A DNA stretch of 64,000 nt from Manihot esculenta (taxonomy: Eukaryota > Streptophyta > Magnoliopsida > Malpighiales > Euphorbiaceae). The notes beneath the pieces are model-generated. The model searched no databases and was not told the DNA's origin. It saw only the letters and a list, made by a program, of their open reading frames with translations. Below, one piece after another: positions 1 to 64,000 of the stretch (its first letter is position 1; each line of letters begins with the position of its first letter). Position numbers and translations under genes: made by a program. The stretch spans positions 9,046,058-9,110,057 of the forward strand of contig NC_035168.2 in assembly GCF_001659605.2 (NCBI RefSeq), read 5' to 3'.

Positions 1-1762
1 CTTGAAAGCAGACTTTCGGCCGCCGAAGGCAATGTTCGGCCGCCGAAAGTGCCTGACTTTCGTCTCTGGAGAGAGGGTTCGGCCGCCGAAGGTGCCGCCG
101 AACCTACCCGAGTTTCGTCTCTGGAGGAGACTTTCGGCCGCCGAAGGTGCCGCCGAAAGTGCCCTGTCCAGCCGTTTCTTGGGTGTTTTCCATGCATGTT
201 TAAGTGATGTTTAGAGGGGTTTTTGGGGAGTTTCTTATGAGTTGTTAGAATGTGTTTAGTACCTCATGTGAGTCCATCTGTGTAGGATTGGACCTGAGGA
301 GAGGTGTCTAGCTTCAGTGCTAGTTGACCCAGAGTTTGTTGAGCAGTGGCTTCAGGTGAGTAGAACTAAACTTAATCTTTTACGTTAAAAGAAATCTAAT
401 GCCTAAAGCATACTCATACATCATGTTATGTAATAGGATGATTGCATTAGCTTCACCATGCCCATGCACCATGTTTATATGTTATAGGATGATTGCACTA
501 GTTTCACGAAGGTGACGCATTGCATAATGTGCTATGTATATGATGTGATGGGTGGACCAAGGCGACCTCAATAGCCCGCAAGTCTGTCAATGAGTCTTTG
601 TCAATCGGGCGAGTACATATAGGAAAGCCCCATGAGAGCTCCTTCGGGGCCAAGTTTTGACAGAGGGAACGTTGGGGTCATGTCTAACCCTGAGGGGAAG
701 GACGTTACGTGAACCCTCTAAAATCACCCGCAAGAGGAAGAGATTTGCTAGTATGAACTCAAGCGGGGGTGAGATGTTTGTTGTGATATAATTGTGATAT
801 GACGCATTTCATGAAAGCATGAATAAGAAGAATAATTGAATAAAATGTCTTTATAATAAAATACATAAAAAGGGTGGAACAATAAAAGGCATAATAATAT
901 ACCTAAAAATGGAGGAACTAAATCAAATGTTTTTCTCTGTTTCTACTCACTGGGCTCTTGTAGCTCACCCCATTCCCTTAACCCCAGTTTTGCAGGGCCA
1001 GAGTATGTCAAGCCAGAGTAAGTCAGAAGAACTATGGGATAGAAGAGGTTCAAGCATGGGTTGCCATGTTTGGTTGTAATAGCTTAGCTTGTTCTGTTTA
1101 TGTTTATGTATAAGGAGAGATGCTTATTGTATATGTTTATGGAGATAGTATGTGATGTAAGTTGCTAAAGAGATGATATGTTATGTAATGCTATGAATGC
1201 TTTGTATGCTTGTATAGTTTAGTTGTGGACATGATGATGATGACGATGTATGGACATGTTGTGAGCATATGAATGAGTAGAAAGAGTAATGTTATAAAGA
1301 GATAGAGCCAAGTTAAGAAAAGTATAGATATACCATGTGTTGTAGCATGAGATGTATAGAATTGTGCTTTGCCTAGAGAGTTGGTAAATCCCTTTTTGTT
1401 ATGCATGATCTTGAGAAAATGTTTCAAATGTTATGAGTTTTGAATGGCCCGTGAGGGAAGAAAGGGTTCCAATCCCTTGACCCAAAGCGGATATGTTTTA
1501 AAGCAAGCTTGATGACCCATTTGGTATGAGGTTCTATGTTTTCATGCATAGGTCAAGCTGAGGTAAGGAAAACAAGTTTAAAGGTTTTTATGAGACCAAA
1601 GCTTAAGTTTTATGAAAAAGTTTGATCATGCACGGGATTATACCTAAAGTTCAGGATGTATAGAGGCTTACTACGGGTCCCGGCGGCCTTAAGCCGATCT
1701 GGATCCTAGTGCCGAGCAGTTTGGAGCCGTTATAGAAGGGTACCGGTTTCCGGGCTGTTACA
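1..1762 (+). mobile_element. Tekay-type LTR, right-hand part, inserted in Athila-D gag
   Basis: This is the 3' portion of a chromovirus LTR. Its end matches the ends of the E1 LTRs: the CTACGGGTCCCGGCGGCC block, the AAGCCGATCTGGATCCTAG block, and a terminus in GTTACA at 1762. It also shares the internal CTCACTGGGCTC...CCCTTAACCCCAG block (about 945-995). No primer-binding site follows. At 1763 an Athila gag frame starts immediately, so this is a solo LTR or a 3' LTR inserted into that gag. The right target-site copy would be CAGCT (1763-1767). The left end and left target site lie outside the window. It contains no gene. Confidence 0.85.
15..160 (+). repeat. P1 palindrome cluster in the Tekay LTR
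   Basis: Four copies of TTCGGCCGCCGAA (15-27, 35-47, 78-90, 133-145) have arms TTCGG/CCGAA around a CCG centre. They are interleaved with TTTCGTCTCTGGAG blocks and half-units of the CCGCCGAA type. Short open frames across it read as SAAEGAAE or FRPPKVPP peptides in every copy of the window. They are by-products of the motif and not genes. Confidence 0.85.
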
Positions 1763-3003
1763 CAGCTGCTGTCCTTGCTGAATTTGAAGCTAAAAACGTT
1801 GAGGCAAGAGCTCCAATGGCACAAGAAAAAACTCTTCGCGAACTAGCAACACCCTTGAATGATCAAGAACTATGGTGCATCACTTACCCACCTTTGACAG
1901 CCCCTTTTAAGCTCAAAACCGGATTAATTCATCTCCTTCCAAAATTCAGAGGTCTAAAAAATGAGGATCCACACAAGCACCTCAAAGAATTTCACATTGT
2001 GTGCTCAACAATGAGGGCTCAAGGTATTTCCGAAGAGCATGTTAAATTAAGAGCTTTTCCCTTTTCTCTTGATGATTTTGCCAAAGAATGGTTGTTCTAT
2101 TTACCACCTGGATCCATCACTTCATGGGATGGGATGGTGAGAGTCTTCTTGAGCAAATACTTCCCAACCTCAAAAGCTATTGGCATCAAAAGAGAGATCA
2201 GTTGCATCAAGCAAAAGGATTATGAAGAGCTATATGAATATTGGAAAAGATTCAATCGATTGTGCACAAGCTGTCCTCAACATGACATCTCTGATAAGTC
2301 ACTCATTGAATACTTCTATGGAGGTTTGCTACCTTCGGAAAGAAAGTTCATAGATGCAGCATGTGGAGGATCAATTGAATACAAGTCACCTCAAGCCATA
2401 AGGGATTTAATTTCCACCATGGCAGCAGCCTCACAACAATTTGGAGACCAAGAACAGCCACCAAGAAGGGTGAATGAGGTGAGTACATCCACTTTAGCAT
2501 CCTAAATTTTTGATCTCACCAATGCTGTTCGTAGCCTTGTTGTGGGTCAAGCCCAACAAGCCCAACAAGTCCAACAGATTCAGCAACCCAAACCATATGG
2601 AATATGTGGAAACTTGAGCCACCCTACTGACCTATGTCCCTCCCTTCAAGAAGAGGACCAGCAAGTAGGAGGATTTAATGGGCAACGGAGGTATGATCCC
2701 TATTCTAACACCTACAACCCAGGTTGGAGGGACCATCCAAATTTCAGTTATGCAAGGGGCAACCAATATCCAAGCTACCAGCAAAGAAATCAACCTCAAG
2801 CTGCACCTCAAAAGTCCAACACACCTCTTGAAGAGATTGTGAAGTCCTTAGCAAATACGGTGCAAAATCTGGAGCAACAAATGAGCCAAATGGCCACTTC
2901 AGTGAGCAAACTTGAGTCTCAAGGAAAACTACCCTCCCAAACTGAGATAAATCCAAGGCAAAATGCTAGTGTTATCACATTGAGGAGTGGCAAAGAGCTG
3001 TAA
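1763..3003 (+). pseudogene. Athila-class gag, 5'-truncated, one internal stop
   Basis: Capsid/nucleocapsid polyprotein fragment of a retrotransposon. The frame is already open at the junction with the left LTR, so the N-terminus has been lost. Visible family blocks are ELATP...CITYPPL, LKTGLIHLLPKFRG, HKHLKEF, LRAFPFSLDDFAKEW, LPPGSITSWD and KYFPTSK, then SCPQHD and FYGGLLPSERKF. A nucleocapsid stretch YGICGNLSHPTDLC keeps Cys-His-Cys, but its first zinc ligand is Tyr (Athila-B has Cys here). An in-frame TAA at 2503-2505 splits the frame, which then resumes unchanged to a TAA at 3001-3003. The tail KLPSQTEINPRQN...TLRSGKEL is shared with Athila-A, -B and -C. It is not expected to make a full Gag. 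Confidence 0.85.
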
Positions 3004-8871: not shown

Positions 8872-9745
8872 TTCGGCCGCCGAAGTTGAGGTTCGACCGC
8901 CGAACATGCATGGCTTTCGGTTTCACGTGTGACCGCCGAAGGTGGTCTGGCCAGCCACCTATAAAAGGCCCTCAGTCGGTTGAAATGATAAGATCACCGT
9001 TTCTTTTACCTTCTGAGGTGAGACCCTGTTCTTTTTAGAGTTTTCTTCATGTTTTCATTAAATCATGCAAAGATTTGATTGATTTTTATGTTGTTTTGAA
9101 GGTTTTGAGTTAGAAACTTGAATTTTGAAGTTTGGAGAGTTTGAAGGAGAGTTGCTCCAAAACTCCACGTTAGGATTGTTCATCTTCTTGGTTTCAAGAG
9201 GTAAGTGAAGATCCTGAGCTTGTTTTTATGTTTTCTGAAGGTTTTATGAGGTTATGGGAGAGAGTTGCATGAATAGGGGTAAAAGAGAGTTTTTGATGGT
9301 TTTGTGAGAAAAGCTTGTATATGTGTTTTATGTTTTGTGTTGTTGGGGTTTTTAGGTAGTTTTTGACCCCTTTGAGCATATACTTGGGTGTATGCAAGTT
9401 GAGGAATTGAGGTGGTTGAGATTGGGAGAGTTTTGTGCTTTTGGTGAGAGGCAGAGCAAGTTTCTGCCTTGCGGATGAACTCAGGTTTGGCCGCCGAACC
9501 CATGAGGAGGTGGCTTCGGCTGCCTAAGCTTGCCCCCGAGCTTTTGGACTTTCGGCTCTGGAGGGGAGTTCGGCCGCCGAAGGTGCCGCCGAAGGTTAGA
9601 GACTTTCGTCTCTGGAGTGCCTTTCAGCCTCCGAAACTTGCCCCCGAAAGGGTTCGGCTGCTGAAAGTAGAGATTCGGCCGCCGAAGGTGCATGAGTTTC
9701 GTCTCTGGAGAGGACTTTCGGCCGCCGAACCTGCCGCCGAAAGTG
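8872..9745 (+). repeat. P1 clusters of the E1 5' LTR
   Basis: TTCGGCCGCCGAA and close variants, for example at 8872-8884, around 9570-9590 and 9717-9729. Mutated copies such as TTCGACCGCCGAA are also present. They are mixed with TTTCGTCTCTGGAG blocks. The matching clusters in the 3' LTR are at about 16328-16376 and 16921-17185, with gains and losses of whole units. Confidence 0.85.
8960..8967 (+). promoter_or_regulatory. TATA box of the E1 5' LTR
   Basis: TATAAAAG within CCACCTATAAAAGGCCCTC, immediately downstream of a P1 pair. The same site is at 16397-16404 in the 3' LTR and, inverted, at 52988-52995 in E4. Confidence 0.65.
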
Positions 9746-16151: not shown

Positions 16152-18331
16152 TGTAATACCCGGCTAGAGTCCGGCATCGGAATTCTACTTTCTGATGGAG
16201 TTCAAGATGCCGAGAGTCTCTAGAAGGGTTAGATTTATGTGGTTTTAAAAGGTTTTGGTATGTTTCATAGTTTTAAAGCATAAGGAAATGAGTTTTTGAG
16301 TGAAATGAACCAAGGCAGAAAAGCCAGGTTCGGCCGCCGAACATGCATGGCTTTCGGTTTCACGTGTGGCCGCCGAAGGTGGTCTGGCCAGCCACCTATA
16401 AAAGGCCCTCAGTCGGTTGAAACGATAAGATCACCGTTTCTTTTACCTTCTGAGGTGAGACCCTGTTCTTTTTAGAGTTTTCTTCATGTTTTCATTAAAT
16501 CATGTAAAGATTTGATTGATTTTTATGTTGTTTTGAAGGTTTTGAGTTAGAAACTTGAATTTTGAAGTTTGGAGAGTTTGAAGGAGAGTTGCTCCAAAAC
16601 TCCACGTTAGGATCGTTCATCTTCTTGGTTTCAAGAGGTAAGTGAAGATCCTGAGCTTGTTTTTATGTTTTCTGAAGGTTTTATGAGGTTATGGGAGAGA
16701 GTTGCATGAATAGGGTTAAAAGAGAGTTTTTGATGGTTTTGTGAGAAAAGCTTGTATATGTGTTTTATGTTTTGTGTTGTTGGGGTTTTTAGGTAGTTTT
16801 TGACCGCTTTGAGCATATACTTGGGTGTATGCAAGTTGAGGAATTGAGGTGGTTGAGATTGGGAGAGTTTTGTGCTTTTGGTGAGAGGCAGAGCAAGTTT
16901 CTGCCTTGCGGATGAACTCAGGTTCGGCCGCGGAAGGTACATTCGGCCGCCGAACCCATGAGGAGGTGGCTTCGGCTGCCCAACCTTGCCCCCGAGCTTT
17001 TGGACTTTCGACTCTGGAGGGGAGTTCGGCCGTCGAAGGTTAGAGACTTTCGTCTCTAGAGTGCCTTTCAGCCTCCAAAACTTACCCCCGAAAGGGTTCG
17101 GCTGCCGAAAGTAGAGATTCGGTCGCCGAAGGTGCATGAGTTTCGTCTCTGGAGAGGACTTTCGGCCACCGAACCTGCCGCCGAAAGTGTTCTGTCCAGC
17201 TTTCTCTTGCATGCTTTGCATGGATGTTTGAGTGAGTTTAAGGGGAGTCTTAGAGAATTAAATAGAGGTGTTTATAAGTTAGTTTGGTCCCTCATTTGAG
17301 TTTATCTGTGCGTACACAGACCAGAGGAACCAGAGAGAGCAGCAGTGAGTACTGCGCCAGAGTTTGTCAGAGCCTGCAGAGTCAGTCCAGCTAGCCAAAG
17401 GTGAGTGGAACTAAACTTAATATTTTTAATTGAGAACTGAAATGCTTTTAGCATAGTTCATGCATCATAAGTATGCAGTAGGTTATTTGTATTAGAATCC
17501 ACGAATATGTTGCATTGCATAGTTATTTATTGATGTGGGTGAATGCTGAATGATCCAATAGTCTCTGAGAGAAGTCCAGGAGCCTTTGACTACGCCCTGG
17601 CAAGTATAGCAAAGTCCAGGAGCCTTTGACTACGCCCTGGCAATGGTAAGTACAGAGGTGTTATATACACATATACATATATGACAGGAAGTCCAGGTGC
17701 TCGATTCTACGCCCTGGCACGGCAGATTTACTGGGACTATGTGGTGACAGGTTTACCCTTGATGTGGATTGTCTGTGGTTTGATGCATTCCATCAGAGCA
17801 TGTGTTAATGACTATTTTACTGTTCTACTCACTGGGCTATAGAGCTCATCCCACTCCCTTAACCCCAGATTTGCAGGTTCAGTGTACAGTGTACAGGGAA
17901 AGTCCAGCAGAGTACAGGAAGAGAGAAGAGTTTTGTAATAGAACATTGTGGACATGTAAATTGCAAGAGATGTAACAGTTGTGTATAAAGTTAGAATTGT
18001 GCTTGACTTAGTTATTTTTGTGTTGTAAATCTTTTGTATACATGGTCTGTTTATGTATAACTGTTTTATAAAGTATGTGAAAAACCAGGCTTAACAGGTA
18101 TGAATGAACCCATCTAGAGCAAGCTCTAATCAGGGGTACAGAGTACAGAGATAGTGCATGCACAGGTTAAGCCTTGGTCCAGAGAAAAGTTTTTATTTTC
18201 GCAGAAAATGTATGACCATGTATGATTGTTTACAGGTGTTCAGAGAGTATAGCAGGCTTGCTACGGGTTCTGGCGGCCTTAAGCCGATCTGAATCCTAGC
18301 GCCGGTGACGGTCCATTTTGGGGTCGTTACA
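16152..18331 (+). repeat. E1 3' LTR
   Basis: TGTAATACCCGGCTAG to GGGTCGTTACA, 2180 bp. Relative to the 5' LTR it lacks one P1 pair near 16335. It has one extra P1 unit near 16921-16960, lacks a CCGCCGAA half-unit near 17030, and has two minisatellite copies instead of three. The rest differs mainly by scattered substitutions. Confidence 0.95.
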
Positions 18332-19588: not shown

Positions 19589-21254
19589 TGATAGAGTATA
19601 TTTTAGTCCATATTATCATGATCTTATTGATATTTATTTACACCTTTTCTAACTAATTTTGTGGTTTTAATCATGTTTTGCAGATATTAGGTGTAAAGAG
19701 ACAATCAAGAGAAAATGCTCTCAAAACTGCCAAAAAGTGCCAAATCTGGAAAAACCACCTTCGGAAGCACCTTCGGCGGCCGAAAGGCTCATCCAGAACC
19801 GAAACTCAACTACCTTCGGAAGCACCTTCGGCGGCCGAAAGTCTCGTCCAGAGCCAAAAGTCACCCATTTTCGGCAGCACCTTCGGCGGCCGAAAGTTTG
19901 CTCCAGAGCCGAAAGTTCAGCTTCCGAAAACAAGTTTAGGCAGCCGAAAGTCCTCCCTAATTGCCTCTTCCTTATTCAAGAAGCCAAATCTTGAAGATCA
20001 CATGTTTCCCACTTCATGCCATGCATATTCAAAATTCAAAAGAAGGCTCCACCTTCCTCTTTAGTGCATGAATGGCAAGAATAATGTGAAGAAGACTTCT
20101 TGGACACACCTTGGACAGCAATTAAAAGACCAAAAAGCCCCTCCCTTGCCTTCACACATGCACATAGAAGGCACATATTGACCAAGAGCACTTTGGGCAA
20201 CCTCTAAAAGATGCATGGACACCCAAAAAACCCTAGGCAGCCTCCCAAGATATATTTAAAGGCCTTATGAAGACAAGATTTCAAGGAACTCATCACCCCA
20301 TCTCCTTCAACCTTCGGCCGCCGCTCCTCCTCCACTCTTGCCGCCGCCGGTTCCTCCTTCCACCTTCTCTTCTTCTACTTTCTGTTTTGGTTTAGCCATG
20401 AGTGGCTGAAACCCTTAATTCTAGTTGAAGATTGGTTGAAACTAAGGTTGTTTTAAAGGGTTGTGAGATCTGAACATAAAGTGTTTGCTTTTGGTTTGTT
20501 CAATATCCATGCAATTGTGTGCTTAAATCTAAGAATGCTTTGTTGTTTTGATCAAATTGGCCACTTGATTCTTGATTGCAAAGTTAATTGACTGTTACTT
20601 GGGATATTTGTTAGTCCGTAATTGCTGAAAATATTCTGACCTAAGAACACTTGGTGTAAAAACTAAGGAATTGTATGATCTAGCAACATCTCATGCGTTT
20701 GAGTAGCTAGGGTTGGATCTCTCTCTTTCTTCATGCAATTGACAATTGTTTTGATGCCTAAGGCCCAAGGACGTTCCTTGGCAATTTGTTAATTAGTAAT
20801 TGATTAGAGGACGTTCCCTAATTGATTTAATCATAAGGAGAGACATGGTGGTGAGAAGTGTTTTCCATCCCCATAACCAATCTATTGAACCAACTAAGAG
20901 CACATAAGTTTCAATGATCAATCCAAGCAACCAAGGTGGATCCATATCTTCAACTAGACCTTTCTCATATTGATTTCCTCTTTTATTTTAATTACTTGCT
21001 AATTTAATTGTTTTCAATAGTTGTTAGTCAAATCAATCTCAAACCCCCCTTTTTTACTTTATTGCACTTTACTTTTGTCTTGCTTTCAATTACTTGCTTT
21101 CCGTTGTGTTTTCAGTTGAATCTCTTGATCTTGTTGGGAAAAATAGATAAGTATACAATTCCCTGTGGATTCGATCCTTTCACCACTATCTGTAGTTGTA
21201 AATTGTTGATAACCAGAAAGGTTATTTTTTACCAGCTTCGACAACCGCGAGTCA
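19589..21254 (+). repeat. Athila-A 5' LTR
   Basis: TGATAGAGTATATTTTAG to CGCGAGTCA, 1666 bp. A P1 cluster lies at about 19757-19945. A TATATTTAAAGG TATA-like site is at about 20237-20248. The CCAAGGACGTTCCTTGG hairpin is at 20765-20781, and the conserved terminal block ends in CTTCGACAACCGCG. The 3' LTR lacks one P1 unit of about 50 bp. A P1-like GC-rich stretch CTTCGGCCGCCGCTCC lies near 20312. Confidence 0.9.
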
Positions 21255-21259
21255 AAAAT

Positions 21260-21277
21260 TGGCGCCGTTGCCGGGGA
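21260..21277 (+). other. Athila-A primer-binding site
   Basis: TGGCGCCGTTGCCGGGGA, the primer site typical of Athila-class elements, which are reported to use tRNA-Asp. It lies five bases after the LTR. Athila-B has the same site with one change. Confidence 0.9.
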
Positions 21278-21305
21278 ATTGATTTAACTTGTTTATTTTT
21301 CTTTC

Positions 21306-24022
21306 ATGACCAGATCTGAACACAGGGACACTCTATCCTTGGATCCAGAAATTGAACGCACCCTCAGAAGATTAGGAAAGCAAGCTGCCGAGCATTCTGC
21401 CCAACATTCGGCCGTCGAACTTCATCAACCTTCGGCCGCCGAACCTTCCTTACTTCAGCAACCGAATTTTGCACCAATGGCAGAACCTAATGCACAAGCT
21501 GCTGCCCCTAATGGACATGCTATCCAGAACCAAATAATTCAAGAAAATCCAGCAATAAGACCACAGATGCCAAGGGAAAGAACCATGAGAGAATTGGCAA
21601 CACCAGTAGGTGATCAAGCACCACTTTGCATCACCTACCCACCTCTGACAGTTCCCTTTGAACTGAAGACAGGTTTGATTCATCTTCTCCCAAAATTTAG
21701 AGGTTTGCAAAATGAAAATCCATACAAGCACTTGAAAGAGTTTAATATTGTTTGCTCATCTATGAGACCTCAAGGTATTTCTAAAGATCATGTTAAATTA
21801 AGAGCTTTTCCTTTTTCATTAGATGACTTTGCTAAAGATTGGTTATTTTATTTGCCACCTGGATCTATAACTTCTTGGGATGATATGGTCCAAACCTTTT
21901 TGAACAAATACTTCCCAACATCTAAGTCAATTGGCATAATAAGAGAAATCACTAGCATAATGTAACAGCCCGAAAATCGGACTTCTACCGGCGAAACTCT
22001 CTTGTATGAGCTGGAAACCCGCCTCAGTACCAGTAGTGAGTTCTTAGATGTTTTCCCAGATAGGCCGCCGAGTGTACCATCTGCTAGGGGGATGGAGTTT
22101 TAAATTAAAGTGATAATGGGGACCAGACCCATCCCTACCTCTCCCTACAGGGTAGCACCTGCAGAGTTAAAGGAGTAGAAAGAGCAGTTAAAAAAAGTTG
22201 GTAGACAAGGGTTTCATCCGACTGAGTACCTCGCCTTGCAATACTCTAGTGTTGGTTATGGAAATGAAGGATGGACCCTCAGGACTTTGTATCGACTACA
22301 AGTCGTTGAACAAAGTCACTACCCAAAACAAGTATTTGTTACCTTGGATCGACGATCTATGTTAAACCAGCTAGCAAGAGCTGGTTGCCTTTCCAAGATA
22401 GATCTGAAGTCCAGGTACCATCAGTTAAGATCAAGGAAGAAGATGTACAGAGAGCAGTATTTAGAACTAGATATGGGCACTATGAGTTCCTAGGAATGTC
22501 GTTCGGGTTAATGAACGCCCCTACAGCATTCATGGATCTCATAAGCAGAGTTTTAGTCGATTTCTGGATCACTCCGTTATTGTCTTCATTGACGGTACCT
22601 CGATGAGTTCCAGAAATACAGAAGGGTATGCCCATTACCTGAGGTCAGGATTGCAAATCCTGAGAGAACATGGCTTGGATGCCCAGTTCTCCAAATGTGA
22701 ATTCCGGTCAAGGAGCATATCTTTCTTGGGTCATGGTATGTCGGAAAAAGAAAAGTGAGGTAAACCCGAGGAAGTTGAAGTTGTAGCTAACTAGCCCAGG
22801 CCCATTGTAGTGACAAAGATCAAGAGTTTTTTTGGGTTGGGCAGGTTACCTACTGGAGGTTCATCTAGAACTTCTCTAGAGTTGCCGCTCCTATGGCCAG
22901 ATGGATCAAGAAGAACCAGAGGGTTGTGTGGTCTACTCAGTGTGAAGAGAGCTTTGAAGAGCCGAAGAAAATGTTAATGTCTATGTTAATGCATGCACAG
23001 ATTGAGTTTGGTTCATGAATGAAAAAGAAAAGATCAATTTTTATGTATGTTGTTGATCATGTATGGGATTAAATAGGTTCACAGGATGTATGTTAGGCTT
23101 GCTACGGGTCCCGGCGGCCTTAAGCTGATTTGGATCCTAGAGCCGGTAGCGGTCCGATTTTCGGGTCGTTACATATAAGAAAGAAACCAACTGAAGATTT
23201 ATATGATTGTTGGGAAAGGTTTGAAAGACTGTGTACAGGTTGTCCACAACATGATATGTCAGATAGGTCCCTCATACAGTTCTTCTACGGAGGATTGCTC
23301 TCATCAAAAAGGAGATTCATAGATATAGCTTGTGGAGGATCCATTGCAGACAAGACACCTAGGGAGATGCGAGAGTTGATTTCTACACTTGCAGCCTCAT
23401 CTAGGCAGTATGGAGAAGAACAGCAAATGCAAAGAGGAGTCAATGAAGTAAGTTCTCCTACTATTTCTGAACTGACAGCTGTTATGAAAGATTTTGCTAT
23501 AGGACTGGTTCAACAGATGCAAGCAGCCCAACCACCTAGGCCATATGGTATCTGTTCATATGTAGGACATCCAACTGATCAATGTCCTACGCTGCAAGAA
23601 GACAACCAGCAGGTTAATGCCATTGGAGGGTACAACAACCAGCCTAGACATGATCCATATTCAAACACATACAATCTAGGTTGGAGAGATCACCCCAATT
23701 TCAGCTACGGAAGGGCCAACAACAATCAGAACTATCAAAGGAACCAAGCCCAACCAGCACCTTCAAATCCTATCCAACGCCTTGAAAAGATGATGAAGTC
23801 CATGGCCGGTGCTATACAAAGCCTCAATCAGTGTATAGATCTGATGGCCACATCCGGAAGCAATTCTGAAACCCAAGGTAAACTCCCTTCTCAAACTGAA
23901 ACTAACCCCAGACAGAATATCAGTGCTGTTACTTTGAGAAGTGGAAAAGAGCTTCAAAATGCAAGATATGAGGAAGAAAAGCAAATAGCACCAAAGCCTG
24001 CGCGATCTGAAACCTTCCCTGC
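21306..24022 (+). pseudogene. Athila-A gag, interrupted by a 1.2-kb insertion
   Basis: It starts at ATG 21306 (MTRSEHRDTLSLDPEIERTL), 28 bases after the primer site. Athila-B starts the same way. The Gag core is the same as in Athila-D. Two P1 copies lie in frame in the N-terminal coding part (about 21404-21450), encoding SAVELHQPSAAEP where Athila-B has none. Gag is split at 21960 by the 21961-23173 insertion and resumes at 23175 in the same frame. The nucleocapsid motif reads YGICSYVGHPTDQC, with Tyr for the first Cys. The solo LTR at 24023 cuts it again. Apart from the insertions the frame is continuous into protease. Confidence 0.85.
21961..23173 (+). mobile_element. 1.2-kb mosaic Tekay derivative inserted in Athila-A gag
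   Basis: Starts TGTAACAGCCCGAAAATC, ends GGGTCGTTACA, flanked by CATAA/TATAA (one change). After about 50 bp of LTR-like start it passes directly into degenerate Tekay protease-RT sequence. Readable peptides there are FLDVFPDRPPS, YRVAPAELKE, CLSKIDLKSRYHQL and FGLMNAPTAFMD. From about 22985 it passes into the last 190 bp of a Tekay LTR. Most of both LTRs and the rest of gag-pol are missing. Its length plus the 5-bp duplication is 1218 bp, a multiple of three, but it carries many stops. Confidence 0.8.
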
Positions 24023-25677
24023 TGATAGAGCATATTTTAGTCCACTTTATCATAATCTTATCGATGTTTATTCGCACCTATTCTACCTAATTTTGTGGTT
24101 TTAATCATGTTTTGCAGATATTAGGTGTAAAGAAGCAATTTGGAGAAAATGCTCTTAAAAATACCAAAAAGTGCCAAAATTGGAAAAAGCCACCTTCGGC
24201 AGCACCTTCGGCGGCCGAACCTTCGGTCCAGAGGCGAAACTCAATCTCCTTCGGAAGCACTTTCGGAAGCCAAAACTGCTTGTCATCTTCGGCGGCACCT
24301 TCGGCGGCCGAACCTTTGCTCCAGAGACGAAAGTCACCCATGTTCAGCGGCACCTTCGGCGGCCGAACCTTCATTCCAGAGCCGAAAGTCCTGCCGCCGA
24401 AACTAAACTTAGGCGGCCGAAAGTCCCTCCAAACAGCCTCCTTCTTGTTCAATAAGCCAAATCTTGAAGATCACATATTTTCCACTTAGTGTCATGCACA
24501 TTCAATATTCAAATCAAGGCTCCACCTTCCTCTTTAGTGCATGAATAATGTGAAGAAAGCTTCTTGGACACACTTGGACATCAAACAAAAGACTAAAAAG
24601 GGCTTGCAACTCCACACAAGCACATAGAAGACTCAAGGGCATTTTGGGCAACTCCCTAAAGATGCATGAAACCCTAAGCAGCCTCTCAAGAACATATTTA
24701 AACATCATATGAAGGCAAGAGAGGCAGATTTTGTTCCATACAACTTCTCCAAGGGTTCTCCATCTTAGTTCTTCATCTTTTTGCTTTCTTTTCTTCTATT
24801 TTCTGTTTTGGTTCAGCCATGAGTGGCTGAAACCCTTATTCTAGTTGAAGTTTGGTTGAAACTAAGGTTGTTTAAAGGGTTGTGAGATCTGAACATAAAG
24901 TGTTTGCTTTTGATTTATTCAATATTCATACAATTGTGCTTAATTCTAAAGATTGCTTTGTTGTTTTGATCAAATTGGCCACTTGATTCTTGATTGCAAA
25001 GTTAATTGATTGTTGGTTAGGATATTTGTTAGTCCGTAATTGCTGGAAATATTCTGATCTAAGAACACTTGGTGTAAAAACTAGGGAATTGCATGATCTA
25101 GCAACATCTCATGCGTTTGAGTAGCTAGGGTTAGATCTCTCTCATTCTTCATGCAATTGACAATTGTTTTGATGCCTAAGGCCCAAGGACATTCCTTGAC
25201 AATTTGTTAATTAGTAATTGATTAGAGGACGTTCCCTAATTAATTTAATCATAAGGAGAGACATGGTGGTGAAAAGCGTTTTCCACCCCCATAACTAATC
25301 TATTGAATTAATCAAGAAAACCTAAGTTTCTATGATCAACCCAAACAACCAAAGTGGATCCATATCTTCAACTAGACCTTTTCTCATATTGATTTCTTAT
25401 TCTATTTTGATTACTTACTGTTTTAATTACTTTCAATAGTTGTTAGACAAATCAATCTCAAAATCCCCCTTTTTTACTTTTATTGCACTTTACTTTCATT
25501 CAACTTTTGATTTACTTGCTTTCTCTTGTGTTTTCAATTAGTTCTCTTGGTCTTGATTGAGAAAAATAAATAGGTAATCAATTCTCTGTGGATTCGATCC
25601 TTCACCACTATCTGCAGTTGTAAATTGTTGATAACCAAAAAGGTTATTTTTGACCGGCTTCGACAACCGCACTGTCA
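24023..25677 (+). mobile_element. Solo LTR of the Athila-A family inside Athila-A gag
   Basis: TGATAGAGCATATTTTAG to CGCACTGTCA, 1655 bp, flanked by a perfect CCTGC duplication (24018-24022 and 25678-25682). P1 copies are at about 24197-24425. It lacks the GCCGCCGCTCC stretch seen in the two flanking Athila-A LTRs. It therefore came from a different copy, not by recombination within this element. Confidence 0.95.
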
Positions 25678-25682
25678 CCTGC

Positions 25683-26568: not shown

Positions 26569-26824
26569 ATTGAAAGCCAGAAAGAGCCAAAACTGAAAGA
26601 AACTGTTTGCAGTATCCAACAAATTGATGTTGCGCAGACTGAAGACTTTCGGCCGCCGAATACAGACAAATTTCGATTGCCGAACCTGACTGCCTTCCAG
26701 ACGTAGAGTCCATCACCACAGCCTGCCCAACACACTGAAAATTTTCGGCCGCCGAATCCAGACCTCTTTCGGCCGCCGAATCTGATCGTCCTTCAGACAC
26801 CGAATTCTGTTACTCCACTTCAGA
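26569..26824 (+). repeat. Protease-integrase linker with P1 copies, in place of RT-RNase H
   Basis: Only about 250 bp separate the protease frame from the integrase frame, where an autonomous Athila would have RT and RNase H. P1 copies start at 26648, 26744 and 26768. Degenerate copies follow at about 26854 and 26872. There is one net frame change relative to protease. Athila-B has a linker of similar position rich in Ser, Gln and Pro but without P1. Confidence 0.8.
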
Positions 26825-30638: not shown

Positions 30639-30952
30639 ATGGGACTTTCGGCGGCAGGTTCGGCGGTCGAAGGTCCCTTCACAGATCCGAAAGTTTGAAC
30701 TTTCGGGGGCATGTTCGGCAGCCTAAAGCCCTTCACAGACCTGAATTCTGAACTTTCAAGGGCAGATTTAGCGGCCAAAAGGCTGCCTCCACAAGCAGGT
30801 TTGGCGGCCGAACCTGGGTTCTCCAGCAAGGCAGAACCCAATTTTGCCCTAATATTCAGCTTCCCAAAGCACCTCAAAACACACATGCAAAGGGTTTAAC
30901 AGCAACCACACCTGTTTAACATATCTAGGAGACTAAAAAACTGGCTCTAACC
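30639..30952 (-). repeat. E2 5' LTR, piece 2 of 3
   Basis: Continues the inverted E2 LTR. GGGACTTTCGGCGGCAGG matches the same region of the solo LTR at about 56338, followed by P1 copies at about 30650-30830. It is cut at 30952 by Athila-B and continues at 39446. Confidence 0.85.
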
Positions 30953-34449: not shown

Positions 34450-34957
34450 GGTAGTTACTGCTGTTATTAAAAGAGAACTCCCTACCAAATGCAAGGATAA
34501 AGGTATGTTCGCTATCTCTTGTAAGATTGGGAATGTTGGTATCAAGAAAGCCATGTGTGATCTTGGTGCATCCATCAATGTTATGCCTCTCTCCATCTAT
34601 AAATCTCTGAATGCATGTGCTTTGAAAGAAATAAGAGTTGTGGTTCAACTAGCTGATAGATCTGTGGTATATCCCATAGGTGTTCTAGAAGATGTGTTAG
34701 TCCAAGTAGATGAACTTGTCTTCCCTGCAGATTTTTATGTGATTGATACTAAGGAAGATAGTTGTAGCACTAGTTCTGACATTCTTCTTGGACGTCCTTT
34801 CTTGAGTACTGCTAGAACTAAGATTGATGTGCATGATGGTACTCTCACTATGAAATTTGAAGGGGAAGTGATTAAATTTAATGTCTATGATGCTATGAAA
34901 TATCCACATGATATGTCCCCTGTTTATAGTCTTGATATTGTTGACTGCTTGAGTTAG
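34418..34957 (+). pseudogene. Athila-B aspartic protease
   Basis: Protease part of the polyprotein, in its own frame because of the upstream shift. It keeps the active site DLGASINVMP and the ILLGRPFLSTARTKIDVHDG block. It ends at a TAG (34955-34957) replacing Gln in the CLSQEIF peptide of Athila-A. The reading frame is otherwise continuous into the integrase, so this stop is the only break between the two. Confidence 0.85.
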
Positions 34958-39445: not shown

Positions 39446-40087
39446 TAACCCAACATGCAATAAAAGCAACGCACAAGAGAAAGCATACATCAACACAAAT
39501 AGACTCAAACCTTAGAACCTTAGGATAAACACATACATGCATCATCAACCATTCCTTAAACCCCTTTAAAAACTTGCTGGAAATTCTCAGAAAACCGAAG
39601 GAAAGCAAAGATTGAACTTACCTCTTGAAGGACAAGGGAAACACAGGAATTAAAGCTTGTAGAAGAGGAAAAAAAATGATTCTCAGAAGGTCTCCACGAT
39701 TGAAAACTTTAGGTTTGACCTCAAATCTTCAAAACCATAGAAGAAAAACATGAAATCTTGTGGGATTTGGAGAAATTCGACAAAAATGCCTCAAAGGATG
39801 CATGAACTCACCTCTGCCCAAAAATGAGGAGAGAAACCTTCACATTTTTTGGTGGATGGCCTTTTATTGGTGGCTGAGGAAGCCATGTTCGGCGGCCGAA
39901 CCTAAGGATTCCTCAAGACTCTTTCCTCTTTTCTTTTAACACGATTCCAAACAATAAAACCCAAAAATTCATTTTATAAAAACCTTATTTTACCCTTTTA
40001 AAGATTCCAGTTTTGAGATTCCAAATTTCGATGGAGATTCTGCTGAAAAGTGGAAATTTCGATGCCGGAGTTTAGCCGAATATTACA
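39446..40087 (-). repeat. E2 5' LTR, piece 3 of 3
   Basis: The remaining outer part of the inverted E2 LTR. It has the CTTACCTCTTGAAG block, the inverted TATA-like GGCCTTTTATTGGTGGCTG, one P1 copy near 39889 and the inverted LTR start GCCGAATATTACA at 40087. Athila-C gag begins directly after it. Confidence 0.85.
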
Positions 40088-43488: not shown

Positions 43489-45748
43489 TGTAACGACCCA
43501 AAAATCGAACCGCTACCGGCGCTAGGATCCGGGTCGACTTAAGGCCGTCGGGACCCGTAGCAAGCCTAACATGCATCCTGTGAACCTGATTAATCCCATA
43601 CATGATCAACAACATACATAAAAATTAAAACTTTTCTTTCATACATTCTATCATACACCAAACTCAACCTGTGCATGCACTGAACATAGTTTTACTCATA
43701 CACTTGACCCCTCTGTGGAATCTCATCAATGCCCCTAATGGGTGGCATAACATGTGTTGAGTTGGTTTACATCTACATCATAAAACATCTAAGATCATGT
43801 AATAAAAGGGATAACAACATCCATAGGGTCAAGCACAACTTCTAATCCTCAATATCATTATACATAACATGACTATTCAAACTTTACATTATCTTACAAT
43901 TTATCATGTCTACTTTCTATCTATTACAAACACATGACTTTACTCTTCTTGACTTCTCAGTCTAGCCCGTACCTGCAATCCTGGGGGATTAGGGAAAAGG
44001 GGTGAGCTACTAGAGCCCAGTGAGCAGAATAATAGAAAACAACAATTAAAATCTCATGCCATCATGTAATGCAACACATCACAACAAATCACATCTCGGA
44101 TGGTATTGTCACCAATAGTCCTCTACATTCCAAAGTGCCGGGACGTAGAATGGGTACAACTGGTCTTTCTCTTAACATAACATATCATAACATTCCAATG
44201 TGCCAGGGACGTAGAATGGGTAAAACCTGGACTTTCTCTTACATAGTGCCAGGGACGTAGAATGGGTACAACCTGGACTTCCATACCATATCATGCCGTA
44301 ACATCATTATACCATATGAGGACTAAAGGGTCATCCAATAACCAATCCACATCAACATCATAAATGCAATGCAACATATTCGTGATTTCTAATGCAAACA
44401 ACCTAATTCATCACATGGCATTCATGATGCATGAACATGCTCAAAACTTTATAATTTATTTGCTTTAAACCGTAAAGGTTTATTCTACTCACCTCTTGGC
44501 TAGCTCTGACAAAGATTGATGCAGCTAACTCACTGCTGGGGTCCTCGGTTCCTCGAGTCCGAACCTACACAGGTGGACTCAAATGAGGGACCAAACAACT
44601 AGAACATAACTCTAAAAACATCCCCCAAAAACCCCCTAAAACACCTCAAAACAATCATGCAAAATCATGCAAAGGAAGGCTGAACAGGGCAGGTTCGGCG
44701 GCACCTTCGGCGGCCGAAAGTCCCTCCAGAGCCAAAACCCAGGTAGGTTCGGCGGCACCTTCGGCGGCCGAAAGTCCCAGACAGAGACGAAAGTCTCTTT
44801 TCGGGGGCAGGCTTCGGCAGCCGAAAGGCTTGCCTCCCCAGCCATGTTCGGCGGCCGAAAGTCCTTCGGCTGCCGAACCTGGTTTCTACCAAAGGGCAGA
44901 AACTTGGCTCCTCTATGCGCATTTGCCTCCAAAACTTCCAATCATGCATAAACTTATTCTACAACACACATACTCAAGCATACAAGTTCCTAGGGGCTTC
45001 AAACCAACTAAAACCCCATCTACAACACATCAAACAACACAAATCCAACATACATTTCCCATAATCCAACAAAAACCCAAAAACTCATAAAACCCTACAC
45101 ATGCATTTCTACTTCAAGAATCAACTTAAAACTTGTTAAAAACATATAGTGAGCTCAAGATCGGCCCTTACCTCTTGAAGATCGAGAGGAAAACGACCCT
45201 AGCTCGAAGATGGGAGAGATTTGAGTTCTTGAACCTCAAAGCTCCAAAACTCGCTTTAAACTCGAAAATCTTCAAAACAAGATGAAAACTCATAAGAAAA
45301 ACATGAGATCTCGAAGGGAGAAGCTCAAAACAGAGGAGGGGCGGTGGAGAACTTACCTTGGCCGAAAACGGGAAGAAAAGCTTGCCCGTTTCGGCCATGG
45401 GGTCATTTTATAGGGCTGTCCTTACCACCTTTCGGCGGCCTAACGTGCCCCCACAGCGCATGCAAGTTCGGCGGCCAAACCTTGGCTGGTTTAAACAAGG
45501 CTTTCGGAGGCCTAAAGCGCTCCCAAAACCTCCCCACGTTCGGCGGCCGAACATGACTTTCGGCGGCCGAACCTGGCAAAGTCTCCAAGGCCCTCTCCAC
45601 TCAAAACATTGTTTTATTTTCATTAAAAACCATAAAATACATCAAAACATTTTAAGAAAACATGGTTTTACCCTTCTAGGGGTCTCCGACATCCGAGATT
45701 CCCCCGGACGGTAGGAATTCCGATACCGGAGTCTAGCCGAGTATTACA
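43489..45748 (-). repeat. E4 3' LTR
   Basis: Inverted: TGTAACGACCCAAAAATC at the left and GAGTATTACA at 45748, 2260 bp. P1 clusters at 44693-44885 and 45434-45575. An irregular three-copy GGGACGTAGAATGGGTA minisatellite lies at about 44140-44285. Inverted TATA at 45405-45412. Compared with the 5' LTR it has 32 extra bases near 44908, between AAACTT repeats, and lacks one 19-bp P1 unit near 45470. Confidence 0.97.
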
Positions 45749-51103: not shown

Positions 51104-53352
51104 TGTAACGACCCGAAAATCGGACCGCTACCGGCGCTAGGATCCGGGTCGACTTAAGGCCGCCGGGACCCGTAGCAAGCCTAACATGCATCCTGTGAAC
51201 CTGATTAATCCCATACATGATCAACAACATACATAAAAATTAAAACTTTTCTTTCATACATTCTATCATACACCAAACTCAACCTGTGCATGCACTGAAC
51301 ATAGTCTTAATCATAAACTTGACCCCTCTGTGGGATCTCATCAATGCCCCCAATGGGTGGCATAACATGTGTTGAGTTGGTTTACATCTACATCATAAAA
51401 CATCTAAGATCATGTAATAAAAGGGATAACAACATCCATAGGGTCAAGCACAACTTCTAATCCTCAATATCATTATACATAACATGACTATTCAAACTTT
51501 ACATTATCTTACAATTTATCATGTCCACTTTCTATCTATTACAAACACATGACTTTACTTTTCTTGACTTCTCAGTCTAGCCCGTACCTGCAATCCTGGG
51601 GGATTAGGGAAAAGGGGTGAGCTACTAGAGCCCAGTGAGCAGAATAATAGAAAACAACATTTAAAATCTCATGCCATCATGTAATGCAACACATCACAAC
51701 AAATCACATCTCGGATGGTATTGTCACCAATAGTCCTTTACATTCCAAAGTGCCGGGACGTAGAATGGGTACAACTGGTCTTTCTCTTAACATAACATAT
51801 CATAACATTCCAATGTGCCAGGGACGTAGAATGGGTAAAACCTGGACTTTCTCTTACATAGTGCCAGGGACGTAGAATGGGTACAACCTGGACTTCCATA
51901 CCATATCATGCCGTAACATCATCATACCATATGAGGACTAAAGGGTCATCCAATAACCAATTCACATCAACATCATAAATGCAATGCAACATATTCGTGA
52001 TTTCTAATGCAAACAACCTAATTCATCACATGGCATTCATGATGTATGAACATGCTCAAAACTTTATAATTTATTTGCTTTAAACCGTAAAGGTTTATTC
52101 TACTCACCTCTTGGCTAGCTCTGACAAAGACTGATGCAGCTAACTCACTGCTGGGGTCCTCGGTTCCTCGGGTCTGAACCTACACAGGTGGACTCAAATG
52201 AGGGACTAAACAACTAGAACATAACTCTAAAAACATCCCCCAAAAACCCCCTAAAACACCTCAAAAAAATCATGCAAAATCATGCAAAGGAAGGCTGAAC
52301 AGGGCAGGTTCGGCGGCACCTTCGGCGGCCGAAAGTCCCTCTAGAGCCGAAACCCAGGCAGGTTCGGCGGCACCTTCGGCGGCCGAAAGTCCCAGACAGA
52401 GATGAAAGTCTCTTTTCGGGGGCAGGCTTCGGCAGCCGAAAGGCTTGCCTCCCCAGCCATGTTCGGCGGCCGAAAGTCCTTCGGCTGCCGAACCTGGTTT
52501 TTGCCAAAGGGCAGAAACTTCCAATCATGCATAAACTTATTCTACAACACACATACTCAAGCATACAAGTTCCTAGGGGCTTCAAACCAACTAAAACCCC
52601 ATCTACAACACATCAAACAACACAAATCCAACATACATTTCCCATAATCCAACAAAAACCCAAAAACTCATAAAACCCTACACATGCATTTCTACTTCAA
52701 GAATCAACTTAAAACTTGTTAAAAACATATAGTAAGCTCAAGATCGGCCCTTACCTCTTGAAGATCGAGAGGAAAACGACCCTAGCTCAAAGATGGGAGA
52801 GATTTGAGTTCTTGAACCTCAAAGCTCCAAAACTCGCTTTAAACTCGAAAATCTTCAAAACAAGATGAAAACTCATAAGAAAAACATGAAATCTCGAAGG
52901 GAGAAGCTCAAAACAGAGGAGGGGCAGTGGAGAACTTACCTTGGCCGAAAACGGGAAGAAAAGCTTGCCCGTTTGGGCCATGGGGTCCTTTTATAGGGCT
53001 GTCCTTACCACCTTTCGGCGGCCTAACGTGCCCCCACAGCGCATGCAAGTTCAGCGGCCGAACATGAGGTTCAGCGGCCGAACCTTGGCTGGTTTAAACA
53101 AGGCTTTCGAAGGCCTAAAGCGCTCCCAAAACCTTCCCACGTTCGGCGGCCGAACATGACTTTCGGCGGCCGAACCTGGCAAAGTCTCCAAGGCCCTTTC
53201 CACTCAAAACTTGGTTTTATTTTCATTAAAAACCATAAAATACATCAAAAAAATTTTAAGAAAACATTGTTTTACCCTTCTAGGGGTCTCCGACATCCGA
53301 GATTCTACCGGACGGTAGGAATTCCGATACCGAAGTCTAGCCGGGTATTACA
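51104..53352 (-). repeat. E4 5' LTR
   Basis: Inverted: TGTAACGACCCGAAAATC at the left and GGGTATTACA at 53352, 2249 bp. P1 clusters at about 52306-52500 and 53015-53180. Inverted TATA at 52988-52995. It retains a P1 unit near 53050-53068 that the 3' LTR lacks. Otherwise it is close to identical to the 3' LTR by eye. Confidence 0.97.
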
Positions 53353-55258: not shown

Positions 55259-57250
55259 TGTAACGACCCGGAAATCGGACCGCTATCGGCGCTAGGATTT
55301 AGATCGACTTAAGGTTGCCGGAACTCGTAGCAAGCCTAACATACATCCTGTACACCTGATAAAATCCCATACATGATCATACATTTTCATAAAAATTTTA
55401 AACTTTTCATACACCAAGCTTGACCTGTGCATGCACCATAACTGTAAACATAAAACCCCACACTAGAGCCCTCATCAAATGCTCTAGTTGGGTCAATATA
55501 ACATACATCAAGCTTGGTTCAACATTTCTCATCATTAAAACATTTCATATAGATCATGTACAAAAAGGGATTAACCATACATTAGGGCCAAGCACAATAC
55601 TAAACCATGAAACATTTCTCTACATTACATTACACTATACCGTTTTACATTACATGTCCACTACTAAACTATTACATAAACATAACCTTGCCAACTTTCC
55701 CATGGCTACCTGTGCTCCTGCAAACCTAGAGGTTAGGGGAGAGGGGTGAGCTACAAAAGACCAGTGAGCAGAACAATAAAAACAATTTAATAAACATATG
55801 CTTTCATGGAATGCATCACAGCACAAACAATTCACATCACGGATGGACTGACCCAAAAATCCCTCTACTCTGTGCCCGGCCCTCGGTGGAGCTCCTCAGG
55901 ACTTCTATTACATACATAAGCTCTGTGCCCGGCCCTCGGTGGGGCTCCTCAGGACTTCTGTTACATAACATAATATCTAAAGGGCTAATGGGTCGTCCTA
56001 TTGTCCATCCATACCCACAATGAATAATGCAATGCGCTATATTCGTGAATTCTAATGCAAACAACCTGTTATATATCATGATGCATGAACATGCTTAAAA
56101 CATTTGATTTCTTGAAATAGAAGATTAGTTTAGTTCTACTCACCTCTGGCTGACTCTGAACTAACTCTAAAGCAGCTATCTCACTTCTGATCACCTCGGT
56201 TCCTTAGGTCCGATCCTACATAGGTGGACTCAAATGAGGGACCAAACATACTCTAACATGACTCTAAACATCTCCCCAAAAACCCCCTAAAACATCATAA
56301 TCATGCATGGAAAAACAGGCAAAAGAAGGCTGGGTAGGGGACTTTCGGCGGCAGGTTCGGCGGCCGAAGGTCCCTCCAGAGCCGAAAGTCAGGCACTTTC
56401 GGGGGCGAGTTTAGGCGGCCTAAAGCTGCTTCCACAGGCAGGTTCGGCGGCCGAACCTGGGCTCTCCCAAAGGGCAGAACCCGATTCTGCCTCTCACATC
56501 CAGCCACCCAAAACCTCACAACATGCATTCAACTATTCTAAAACATGCATAAACACTCATTCAAGCATATAGGGGCATAAAACTAGTCTAAACCCCAACA
56601 AACATCAACATATAATCTCATTAAGCATAAAGGGTATATAAACCCTAACATTTTACAACTAGCTTAAACATGCATCAAAACCCTTAACCCCTTCTTAAAA
56701 CTTGCTTAAAACATAAAAGAAGACGAGGATTAACACTTACCTCTTGAAGATCGAGAGGAGATGTGATCCAAACTTGGAGATTGGGAGAAATCCAGCTTCG
56801 TGGGTCTCCAAGCTTCAAAAGCTTGATCTTAGCTTAAAATCTTCAAAACAAAAGTGAAAACTCATAAAAATCATGAGAGACTTGAAGGAAAAGCACAAGA
56901 TCAACAAGGGGTGGCGGAGACTCACCTTGCCCGGAAATGGAGAGAAAAAACTCGCCCATTTTCGAACAGGGGGCCCTTTATAGGTGGCTGGCCAGACCAC
57001 TTTTGGGGGCTAAAAGTGCCTCCGCATCTGCCCCATGTTCGGCGGCCGAACCTGGGTTTGCCTCCAAGCTCTTTTCTTTTTCAAAACTCAATTTCTTTCT
57101 CTAATAAAACCATAAAAACATTTAGAAACATTTTAGAAAACCTTTATTTTACCCTTTTAGAAGGCTCCGACATCCGAGAAATTTCAGATTCCAATGGAAA
57201 TTCTGCCGGAAGGTAGGAATTCCGGTGCCGGGGTCTAGCCGGGTATTACA
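55259..57250 (-). mobile_element. Solo Tekay LTR
   Basis: Inverted LTR, 1992 bp, TGTAACGACCCGGAAATC to GGGTATTACA, with a perfect CCTAG duplication (55254-55258 and 57251-57255). P1 copies at about 56340-56460 and 57036. Inverted TATA (CCCTTTATAGG) near 56968. A two-copy 54-bp minisatellite (CTCTGTGCCCGGCCCTCGG, at 55867 and 55921) occupies the same slot as in E1 and E4 but with another unit sequence. Confidence 0.95.
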
Positions 57251-63048: not shown

Positions 63049-63756
63049 TGATCAAACATAATTTAGTCACATTTTTACTATCTTTATTACCGTTTAATTA
63101 CACATTTTTCAGCTTAATTTATGGTTTTTGTCATGTTTTTATAGAAAAAGAAGAAAATGGAAAGTTGGAGAAAAAGTGTAGAAAAAGCTGGAAAAGTGAT
63201 TGGGTCAAAGTGATTTGACCAAATCACTGCCCAAATCAAGCATCGGAAGCAGAGGTAGGAAGCCGGGGCAGAAACCTAGAAGTGAATTCACAGAAACGAT
63301 TTGGGCAAGTGATTTGCCTAAATCACATCGACATAGTAAGGGACAGCAGAGCGGGAAAAAGGGCAGACTTTTCAACTGTTAACTGCCTTAAGACTTAGAG
63401 AAACCTAATTCTATTCTTGCCAACTGCGTGGTCAAGTTTAGATTATGCAACCGATTATACTTGAGTTTCAACAACCTAAGCAATTACGGATCTAAATCAT
63501 TCAAACAATATATTACTTAAGCAATTAAAAGCAACAGGCCTTAATTGATTCTAAAAGCAAAGCAATAATTATAGAAAGATCAAGTTGCATAAATATTAAA
63601 AGTAAACAAGAGTTTAATAATGGAGTTTTAAATGAAGAAAGGAAGATGGAGAGATGATTTTATGCTGGTTTGAGGCTGCCTCCTTTTATAGGTGAAGAGT
63701 CCTAATCCAATTAGGACTTGGAATCCTAATTTGAATTGGTCTTTTTGTGGTCTTTT
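63049..63756 (+). mobile_element. Rearranged Athila-D LTR with an internal inversion
   Basis: 63049 to about 63375 matches the start of the Athila-D LTR (TGATCAAACATAATTTAG, with P2 copies at 63212 and 63311). From about 63379 to 63756 the sequence is the reverse complement of the middle of the same LTR (5597-6117, including the GACCACGCGGTTGGCAAGG block). The stretch between is missing. It is cut on the right by a Tekay LTR. Confidence 0.8.
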
Positions 63757-64000
63757 TGTAATACCCGGCTAATTTAGACATCGGAATTTCTACCGTCCGG
63801 TGGAATTCGGGGATGTCAGAGACTTCTAGTGGGAGGGTATTAGAAAGTTTTGCAAAGAATAGAATAGGATTGAGTTTTGAAAAGAAAAGGCTTGGGGGAC
63901 AAAGGCCAGGTTCGGCCGCCGAAGGTTATGTTCGGCCCCCGAAAGTTGCATGGTTTTGCATGCAGTTTCGGCAGCCGAAGCTGAGGTGGTCGGTTAGTTG
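63757..64000 (+). mobile_element. Start of a plus-strand Tekay LTR, running off the window
   Basis: TGTAATACCCGGCTAATTT and the following ACATCGGAATTTCTACCGTC match the Tekay LTR start. A P1 copy TTCGGCCGCCGAA lies near 63911, then a variant with CCC centre. The left flank CTTTT (63752-63756) would be the target-site copy. Confidence 0.85.

Follow-up and report, generated by a model that had tools for sequence, protein, structure and literature searches.

Modular turnover of the U3 region is well known in the long terminal repeats (LTRs) of retrotransposons. A plant LTR can also gain the binding site of a host factor, as in ONSEN, a Ty1/copia family of Arabidopsis whose LTR promoter, according to the available part of its description, has acquired a palindrome-like site for the host factor HSFA2 (PMC3907296). 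Here we describe a short palindrome, P1, in a stretch of 64,000 nucleotides of the cassava (Manihot esculenta) genome (contig NC_035168.2, positions 9,046,058 to 9,110,057; hereafter the window, to which all positions below refer), where it is carried by LTRs of two lineages, Tekay and Athila-A. Whereas ONSEN is a single family with a known factor, P1 is found in three lineages, the third being a Ty1/copia family elsewhere in the genome, and in the interiors of elements as well as in LTRs.

A second point of comparison is offered by the VANC targets of VANDAL DNA transposons, which in the accessible portions of two reports form dense tandem arrays of a short motif at several places in an element and change quickly in copy number (PMC5735166; PMC10398659). 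P1 likewise forms dense tandem arrays along its host elements. However, in the part of PMC5735166 available the VANC21 motif YAGTATTAY is asymmetric, mainly noncoding and enriched in one family, being rare outside it, and has a known binder, whereas P1 is palindromic and occurs in three unrelated lineages of two superfamilies. Sharing across superfamilies and a partly coding location set P1 apart from both ONSEN and VANC. The sites of LBD (LOB-domain) proteins are also GC-rich, and their dimers are reported to discriminate palindromes, but the core quoted in the accessible text, GCGGCG, is absent from P1, and on this comparison with the quoted core alone LBD proteins are candidates only (PMC10118128). 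Literature searches for a shared plant LTR module and for a cassava palindrome turned up no relevant work in the listed titles and abstracts (12 of 148 in one search), and the letters of P1 led only to an unrelated C. elegans paper; most of the subscription literature lay outside the scope of these searches.

We consider it probable, from comparison of sequences, that P1 is a binding site for a putative dimeric protein, that it is used as a retrotransposon promoter element, and that it has spread by capture and tandem duplication. P1 would be the core of a palindrome of about 19 bp, A-NN-TTCGGC-N-GCCGAA-NN-T, bound by a sequence-specific dimer and acting as a promoter or enhancer element of cassava LTR retrotransposons. 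Its arrays would serve ahead of the Tekay TATA box, within the U3 of both Athila-A and the copia family and, in the latter, also ahead of a putative internal promoter, with further copies in weakly constrained coding stretches of Athila-A. Sites would multiply through tandem duplication, and a longer unit of about 55 bp would have moved between lineages when the U3 of an ancestral Athila-A captured, in inverted orientation, a block from the second P1 cluster of a Tekay LTR.

Structure and abundance of the palindrome

P1 is one form of the strict palindrome TTCGGC-N-GCCGAA, which is symmetric about a single central base. The window holds 36 exact P1 13-mers (15 on the plus strand and 21 on the minus strand) and, with up to two mismatches, 142 strand-matches against 0.23 expected, palindromy causing most sites to score on both strands. 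Exact facing half-sites occur 42 times with a spacer of one base and never with spacers of 0 or of 2 to 12 bases; of these 42 sites, 36 are centred on C or G and the other 6 on A or T. A genome-wide search used the pattern TTCGGCNGCCGAA with any central base and found 333,204 sites in the assembly of 640,357,471 bases. Exact P1, with C or G at the centre, accounts for 273,055 of them, leaving 60,149 with A or T. Control patterns gave 33 sites with a two-base spacer, the sole other spacer counted genome-wide, and 4 when the pattern was read backwards, so that the one-base spacer is preferred about 10,000-fold over the two-base spacer. A chance origin is rejected by these counts in the window (142 against 0.23) and in the genome (333,204 against 33 and 4), and the motif is neither background noise nor confined to two families.

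Beyond the core, A at -9 and T at +9 each occur in 82% of the 79 distinct Tekay contexts, where distinct means a flank identity below 80% and the contexts are not wholly independent by descent. Among 32 contexts outside Tekay, 21 have A at -9 and 23 have T at +9 (p about 1e-12 against base frequency), and positions ±7 and ±8 are variable. Both bases are present in 52 of 79 Tekay contexts, 2 of 4 in Athila LTRs, 4 of 14 in Athila coding sequence, 6 of 7 in copia LTRs and 3 of 7 in copia interiors; the corresponding figures for at least one of the two are 78 of 79, 3 of 4, 13 of 14, 6 of 7 and 7 of 7. Palindromic covariation at ±7 to ±14 is near expectation, the largest excess being 0.37 against 0.26 at ±12, and at ±9 both bases are frequent without covarying. 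A symmetric 19-bp pattern of fixed and free positions is the trace to be expected of a dimeric DNA-binding protein. The earlier proposal that P1 could act as a binding element is supported.

The hosts of P1 were surveyed in 20 stretches of 10 kb on 17 chromosomes, taken at round coordinates of our own choosing rather than drawn at random. They contain 152 sites, in 12 of the 20 stretches. By BLAST against the elements of the window, 142 sites lie in or beside Tekay matches. Two more lie in an apparent Athila-A-like LTR (L029:417-460; 357 bp at 81%), an assignment that is our own reading, the automatic label having followed a stronger adjacent Tekay match. The remaining eight are in a sequence without a match in the window, L026. 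A scan of viral contigs found the pattern in 12, and further scans gave 5 and 1 pattern matches and no relatives.

The concentration of most sampled sites in one abundant family is also what would be seen if P1 were a functionless tandem repeat, spread by replication slippage and ordinary recombination while hitchhiking on successful LTR families. Tandem duplication could attain all the counts above, and the copy of P1 nearest the promoter is often degenerate, as described below. Neither the roughly 10,000-fold preference for one spacer nor the symmetric ±9 enrichment across lineages with different flanks fits such a repeat well, nor do the recurrence of P1 in coding frames and before TATA boxes and the intact sites of a very young family. 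We regard a repeat devoid of function as quite unlikely.

Position relative to the TATA box

In the window P1 is present in all eight mapped Tekay LTR copies that reach the P1 region (the piece at 1-450, two LTRs each of elements E1 and E4, a solo LTR, a split LTR hosting nested insertions, and the LTR at 63757), and the three LTRs of Athila-A have it too, as had first been noted. The Tekay piece given originally as 1-1762 does carry P1, but only about its first 450 positions match other Tekay LTRs. A fragment of a Tekay LTR 3' end at 22981-23173 stops short of the region.

Two P1 clusters can be distinguished in these LTRs, the first directly upstream of the TATA box. In the E1 5' LTR it lies at 8872..8940 (plus strand), its last P1-like site, with three mismatches, starting 32 bp before the TATA box; the E1 3' LTR (16329..16377, plus) has one 20-bp P1 repeat fewer. 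In both LTRs of E4, an element on the minus strand, the last site has one mismatch and starts 31 bp before the TATA box (45431..45571 and, in the 5' LTR, 53014..53174, both minus). The solo LTR has a P1 at 57038..57050 (minus) and a further site with four mismatches 32 bp before its TATA box, and the nested LTR has a single promoter-proximal P1 at 39888..39900 (minus), 32 bp before a TATA-like AATAAAA. The cluster at 63911..63979 (plus) belongs to the LTR that is cut by the end of the window. A TATA box is in view in six of the window's Tekay LTRs, and in all six it is preceded, at 31-32 bp, by the start of the last P1-like site. Half-site mismatches in these proximal sites number 3, 2, 1, 1, 4 and 0, the zero belonging to the site that faces AATAAAA.

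The same spacing recurs in the sampled stretches. A TATA box was found in 13 of 20 Tekay LTR starts (the other seven had none by the pattern used), and the distance to the last site, defined at up to three mismatches, is 31-32 bp in all 13. Between two and seven sites lie ahead of the TATA box in these LTRs and the last one is constant in position, so sites have been added and lost in steps while the TATA-proximal one has stayed put. The LTR of the copia family, like that of Tekay, has an array of sites ahead of its TATA box, as would an LTR promoter of the ONSEN kind; here the distance from the last sites to the TATA box is 110 and 131 bp in the five copies measured (six loci, two of which, L026 and L041, are the same place).

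A position upstream of the TATA box also bears on the possibility, raised in part by the preliminary description, that P1 acts as a hairpin, for instance in the packaging, dimerisation or processing of retrotransposon RNA. Each P1 could form a 5-bp stem, and the folding results are mixed: in three of the six segments the fold beats almost all of 200 shuffles (z of -2.3, -3.3 and -3.8), whereas the other three do not (-0.26, -1.89 and -1.89). With z ranging from -0.26 to -3.84, a simple hairpin role is not supported. The TATA box of Tekay comes only after cluster 1, and a hairpin would have no need of an A/T pair at ±9 beyond variable bases; an RNA-level element thus appears very unlikely.

A young Ty1/copia family

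The sampled sequence L026 is the third LTR lineage with P1, so the motif is not restricted to two lineages as had been supposed. It contains a 110-bp tandem array of 3.9 copies within an LTR with 664 candidate copies in the genome, the 40 that were scored showing 98-100% identity. In L042 a further copy of this LTR adjoins a gag of copia type (Pfam Retrotran_gag_2, E 1.7e-27), so by this domain match the family belongs to a different superfamily, Ty1/copia, from Tekay and Athila. Paired LTRs differ at only 1/1558, 6/1561 and 1/1559 sites, and such near identity indicates a very recent burst. The array holds the 55-bp unit in sense orientation, scoring 23.8 bits with the profile built from the window, against 21.7 for the best of 300 shuffles that kept P1, and it contains GACAGAGACGAAAGTC, as does the Tekay unit at 44760. 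Variation across 12 young copia LTRs affects 2 of 104 columns in P1 and 61 of 1454 outside it, a suggestive difference resting on few columns.

Further copies of P1 lie in the copia interior, where a cluster stands just upstream of a conserved TTAAAA and a CT-rich stretch. This arrangement was seen in four copies of the element, of which two share 80% and 85% identity with locus L054. The reading frame ahead of the cluster is, we presume, the end of ribonuclease H (RNaseH). Behind it, in the one copy read (L061:532-1806), follows an open reading frame (ORF) of 425 residues with PF20167 ("putative plant transposon protein", E 1.9e-25). From this arrangement the internal cluster may be part of a putative internal promoter for the PF20167 gene. 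The ORF has a glutamine-rich and possibly coiled C-terminus and belongs to a family that is very young and of high copy number. It has no DNA-binding domain above the curated cut-off, the sole other Pfam match up to E 1 being TMF_TATA_bd (14.6 bits, well below its cut-off of 29.1; E 0.038). No homologue was present among 7,993 scored candidates, and no relative was found in the PDB.

An open PF20167 ORF behind an internal P1 cluster invites comparison with VANC, in that an element-encoded protein, such as this one, might bind P1 arrays along the elements and strip silent marks, with other lineages that acquired the arrays riding free. The arrays do occur at several places along elements, beyond the LTR promoter, and their tandem gain and loss between related copies resembles that of VANC target repeats in the part of PMC5735166 available. 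Against this, the same portion of that report has the VANC21 motif rare outside its own family and mainly noncoding, whereas P1 occurs in two superfamilies and in coding DNA; the PF20167 ORF is without a DNA-binding domain over the cut-off or a PDB relative; and a fixed distance to the TATA box suits ordinary activation better. We judge anti-silencing of the VANC kind, the boldest of the alternatives, unlikely, and favour a promoter element bound by a dimer.

The 55-bp unit and its transfer to Athila-A

In the orientation of Athila-A, the unit runs from a half-site, TTCGG-NNGC-ACC, through P1 to, usually, AAAGTC, CCAGAG and CGAAAGTC. The unit of about 45 bp recognised originally in both window lineages does extend past the 13-mer, to about 55 bp. 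A profile gives 20 matches of at least 41 bits, eight in Athila-A LTRs, all sense, and twelve in Tekay LTRs, all antisense; it was built from these same 20 units and its scores are not independent of them. The opposite orientation noted earlier thus stands for the units, but P1 itself is almost directionless and the call depends on the flanking CCAGAG-CGAAA block. The long unit belongs to the second P1 cluster of Tekay LTRs, and the first, by the TATA box, matches only in the P1 core.

Second clusters of Tekay occur at 15..145 (minus; two full 55-bp units, in the piece at 1 to about 450), in the E1 5' LTR at 9486..9729 (minus; units antisense to the element) and 3' LTR at 16923..17173 (minus), in the E4 LTRs at 44706..44877 and, for the 5' LTR, 52321..52492 (both plus), and in the solo LTR, flanked on both sides by the target site duplication (TSD) CCTAG, at 56344..56455 (plus). 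Another, at 30647..30812 (plus), is in the minus-strand LTR that hosts the Athila-A insertion. The LTRs of Athila-A carry P1 in U3 blocks, all on the plus strand: the block of LTR1 (19752..19948) comprises three 55-bp units plus a variant P1 at its edge, while the solo LTR (LTR2) has three units at 24195..24431, and LTR3 two units at 29194..29339, one fewer than LTR1 of the same element. Units are arranged head to tail, and copy number shifts in steps of about 20, 55 and 110 bp in the manner of tandem repeats.

The Athila-A block, of about 150-240 bp, is a single collinear piece of Tekay cluster 2 in reverse, and the edge variant TTCGGCTGCCTAA is common to it and the E1 5' LTR. Athila-C, whose LTR aligns with that of Athila-A to the left and to the right of the block, does not have it (the right-hand alignment scores 56, the shuffles at most 27). 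Athila-B also lacks it, and the U3 of Athila-B beyond that point has no detectable match to Athila-A (25 against a shuffle maximum of 27). Mean identity is 0.804 between Athila and Tekay units and 0.819 among Tekay units, which places the Athila units within Tekay diversity. Because the block is missing from Athila-C and the Athila units fall within the diversity of Tekay, these alignments are most simply read as a transfer out of Tekay into Athila-A. The case resembles ordinary modular turnover of U3 in that related Athila LTRs share their ends and differ in the U3 slot, but differs in that the module appears traceable to an unrelated donor lineage, and inverted.

These observations support the exchange between lineages that had been proposed. 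It had been argued that template switching on RNA should preserve orientation, but this is not binding. The window's Athila-A (19589-30638, plus) is nested in a Tekay LTR of antisense orientation, its end some 8 bp away from the unit at 30647-30697, with an imperfect duplication AGGGG/ATGGG, and read-through RNA from such an insertion would bear the Tekay block in the orientation observed in Athila-A. Nested insertion is accordingly a possible route; the present copy already has the block and illustrates the route, not the event. In the accessible part of one study of nesting, LTRs are not commonly targeted and the preference for palindromes at insertion sites is slight, though significant in four families including Athila (PMC6911290). 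For this reason we do not assume that insertions were targeted to P1 clusters. Nor is there a need for a short mobile unit of independent origin, as was once suggested, since the block in Athila-A corresponds to a single collinear stretch of a Tekay cluster and copy number changes in tandem-type steps (no unit-by-unit search for TSDs was made).

Copies in coding sequence

P1 also occurs in Athila-A outside the LTR sites first described, near the N-terminus of gag and in the linker between protease and reverse transcriptase (RT). The gag frame contains a pair of P1 sites at 24-bp spacing, the first with one mismatch, and a degenerate third site (21407..21466, plus), read as SAVE / SAAE. The linker contains an array of 24-bp doublets in a repeat of about 100 bp (26648..26886, plus), the first part of which is read as FRPPN (mostly xRPPN across copies). 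Since P1 is read in different frames in the two places, it is the DNA and not the peptide that recurs, and a peptide-level repeat is rejected. Athila-B has no P1 at the matching places of gag and linker.

Close pairs of sites, with 10-17 bases between them, number 1,657 genome-wide; eight were inspected, six of these stretches being picked by hand for differing spacers among the matches listed, and comprised four Athila and four copia cases. Among the Athila stretches, P1 pairs lie in gag in L056 and L059 and in the linker in L055 and L058; the frames of the L059 gag and of the L055 and L058 linkers are open. Similarly, a database gag of 180 residues (P0094) contains, at the matching place, two copies of SAAE that lie 8 residues apart. 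The coding copies of P1 are not a private accident of the Athila-A copy in the window.

Host elements in the window

The lineage names Tekay and Athila are those of the preliminary description; Tekay is assigned to Ty3/gypsy by Pfam domains and not by a chromodomain. Together, the ORFs of E1 and E4 contain gypsy-type gag, protease, RT, RNaseH and integrase. A tandem duplication of 418 bp, with two copies about 96% identical, lies within a Tekay internal fragment at 7535-8372. An Athila-type element would be expected to have gag, a protease-RT linker, integrase and LTRs of the form TGATAGAG..CA with a 5-bp TSD; in the putative Athila elements here gag and integrase were found by Pfam, and TSDs identified by eye are TAACC/TAACC, CCTGC/CCTGC and AGGGG/ATGGG. 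The Athila-A and Athila-B interiors (25687-29024 and 34147-37372) span the protease to integrase region. Both may be non-autonomous, as no RT or RNaseH domain was detected in the four ORFs of Athila-A and Athila-B that were scanned. The best protein match to the Athila-B gag, at 85% identity, is from Manihot esculenta.

Nesting is extensive between 18446 and 40088, where a Tekay LTR on the minus strand is split by Athila-A and by Athila-B, the latter flanked by the TSD TAACC; within Athila-A there are in turn a solo LTR of Athila type, flanked by the TSD CCTGC, and a fragment of Tekay. Each Athila lineage bears its own motif array in the U3 slot: the P1 block in Athila-A, a GGCCCA-rich sequence in Athila-B and an array of AAATTCAA in Athila-C (31100-31760, 37880-38535 and 61810-62300 in the Athila-B and Athila-C comparison).

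Biological implications

Several observations weigh against a promoter element bound by a dimeric protein and passed from Tekay to Athila-A. The site closest to the promoter is often degenerate, and descent alone could preserve both its distance from the TATA box and some of the flanking bases. The ±9 signal is weaker outside Tekay, and the margin of the copia unit over its shuffles is modest. The tree of units is poorly resolved, with one of 17 inner branches well supported, and copies in coding sequence are unusual for a promoter site. Finally, the CpGs of P1 decay after insertion at about the rate of others (6/49 against 33/173). Protection of CpGs in dead copies is not supported by this comparison, and because decay is nearly equal no lasting protection of old copies is visible.

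P1 is nonetheless a real, very large and unexplained feature of the cassava genome, and larger than was first noted. A bolder extension, which we think unlikely, is that one putative protein, possibly encoded by an element, reads the 19-bp code across at least three unrelated lineages, whether it stands in promoters, in a putative internal promoter or in coding sequence, and activates or shields them jointly, as a cross-family regulon that elements would join by capturing or evolving the code. If P1 is indeed a shared control site, unrelated retrotransposons would have in common a single sequence that makes up about 0.7% of the letters of the genome (333,204 sites of 13 bp in 640 Mb), and a single factor would have about a third of a million binding sites, scattered by transposition. 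The 19-bp palindrome would be a ready bait for the putative protein. The shared site would also offer direct access to the causes of retrotransposon bursts in cassava and a way to learn whether one element takes over the regulatory or anti-silencing code of another.

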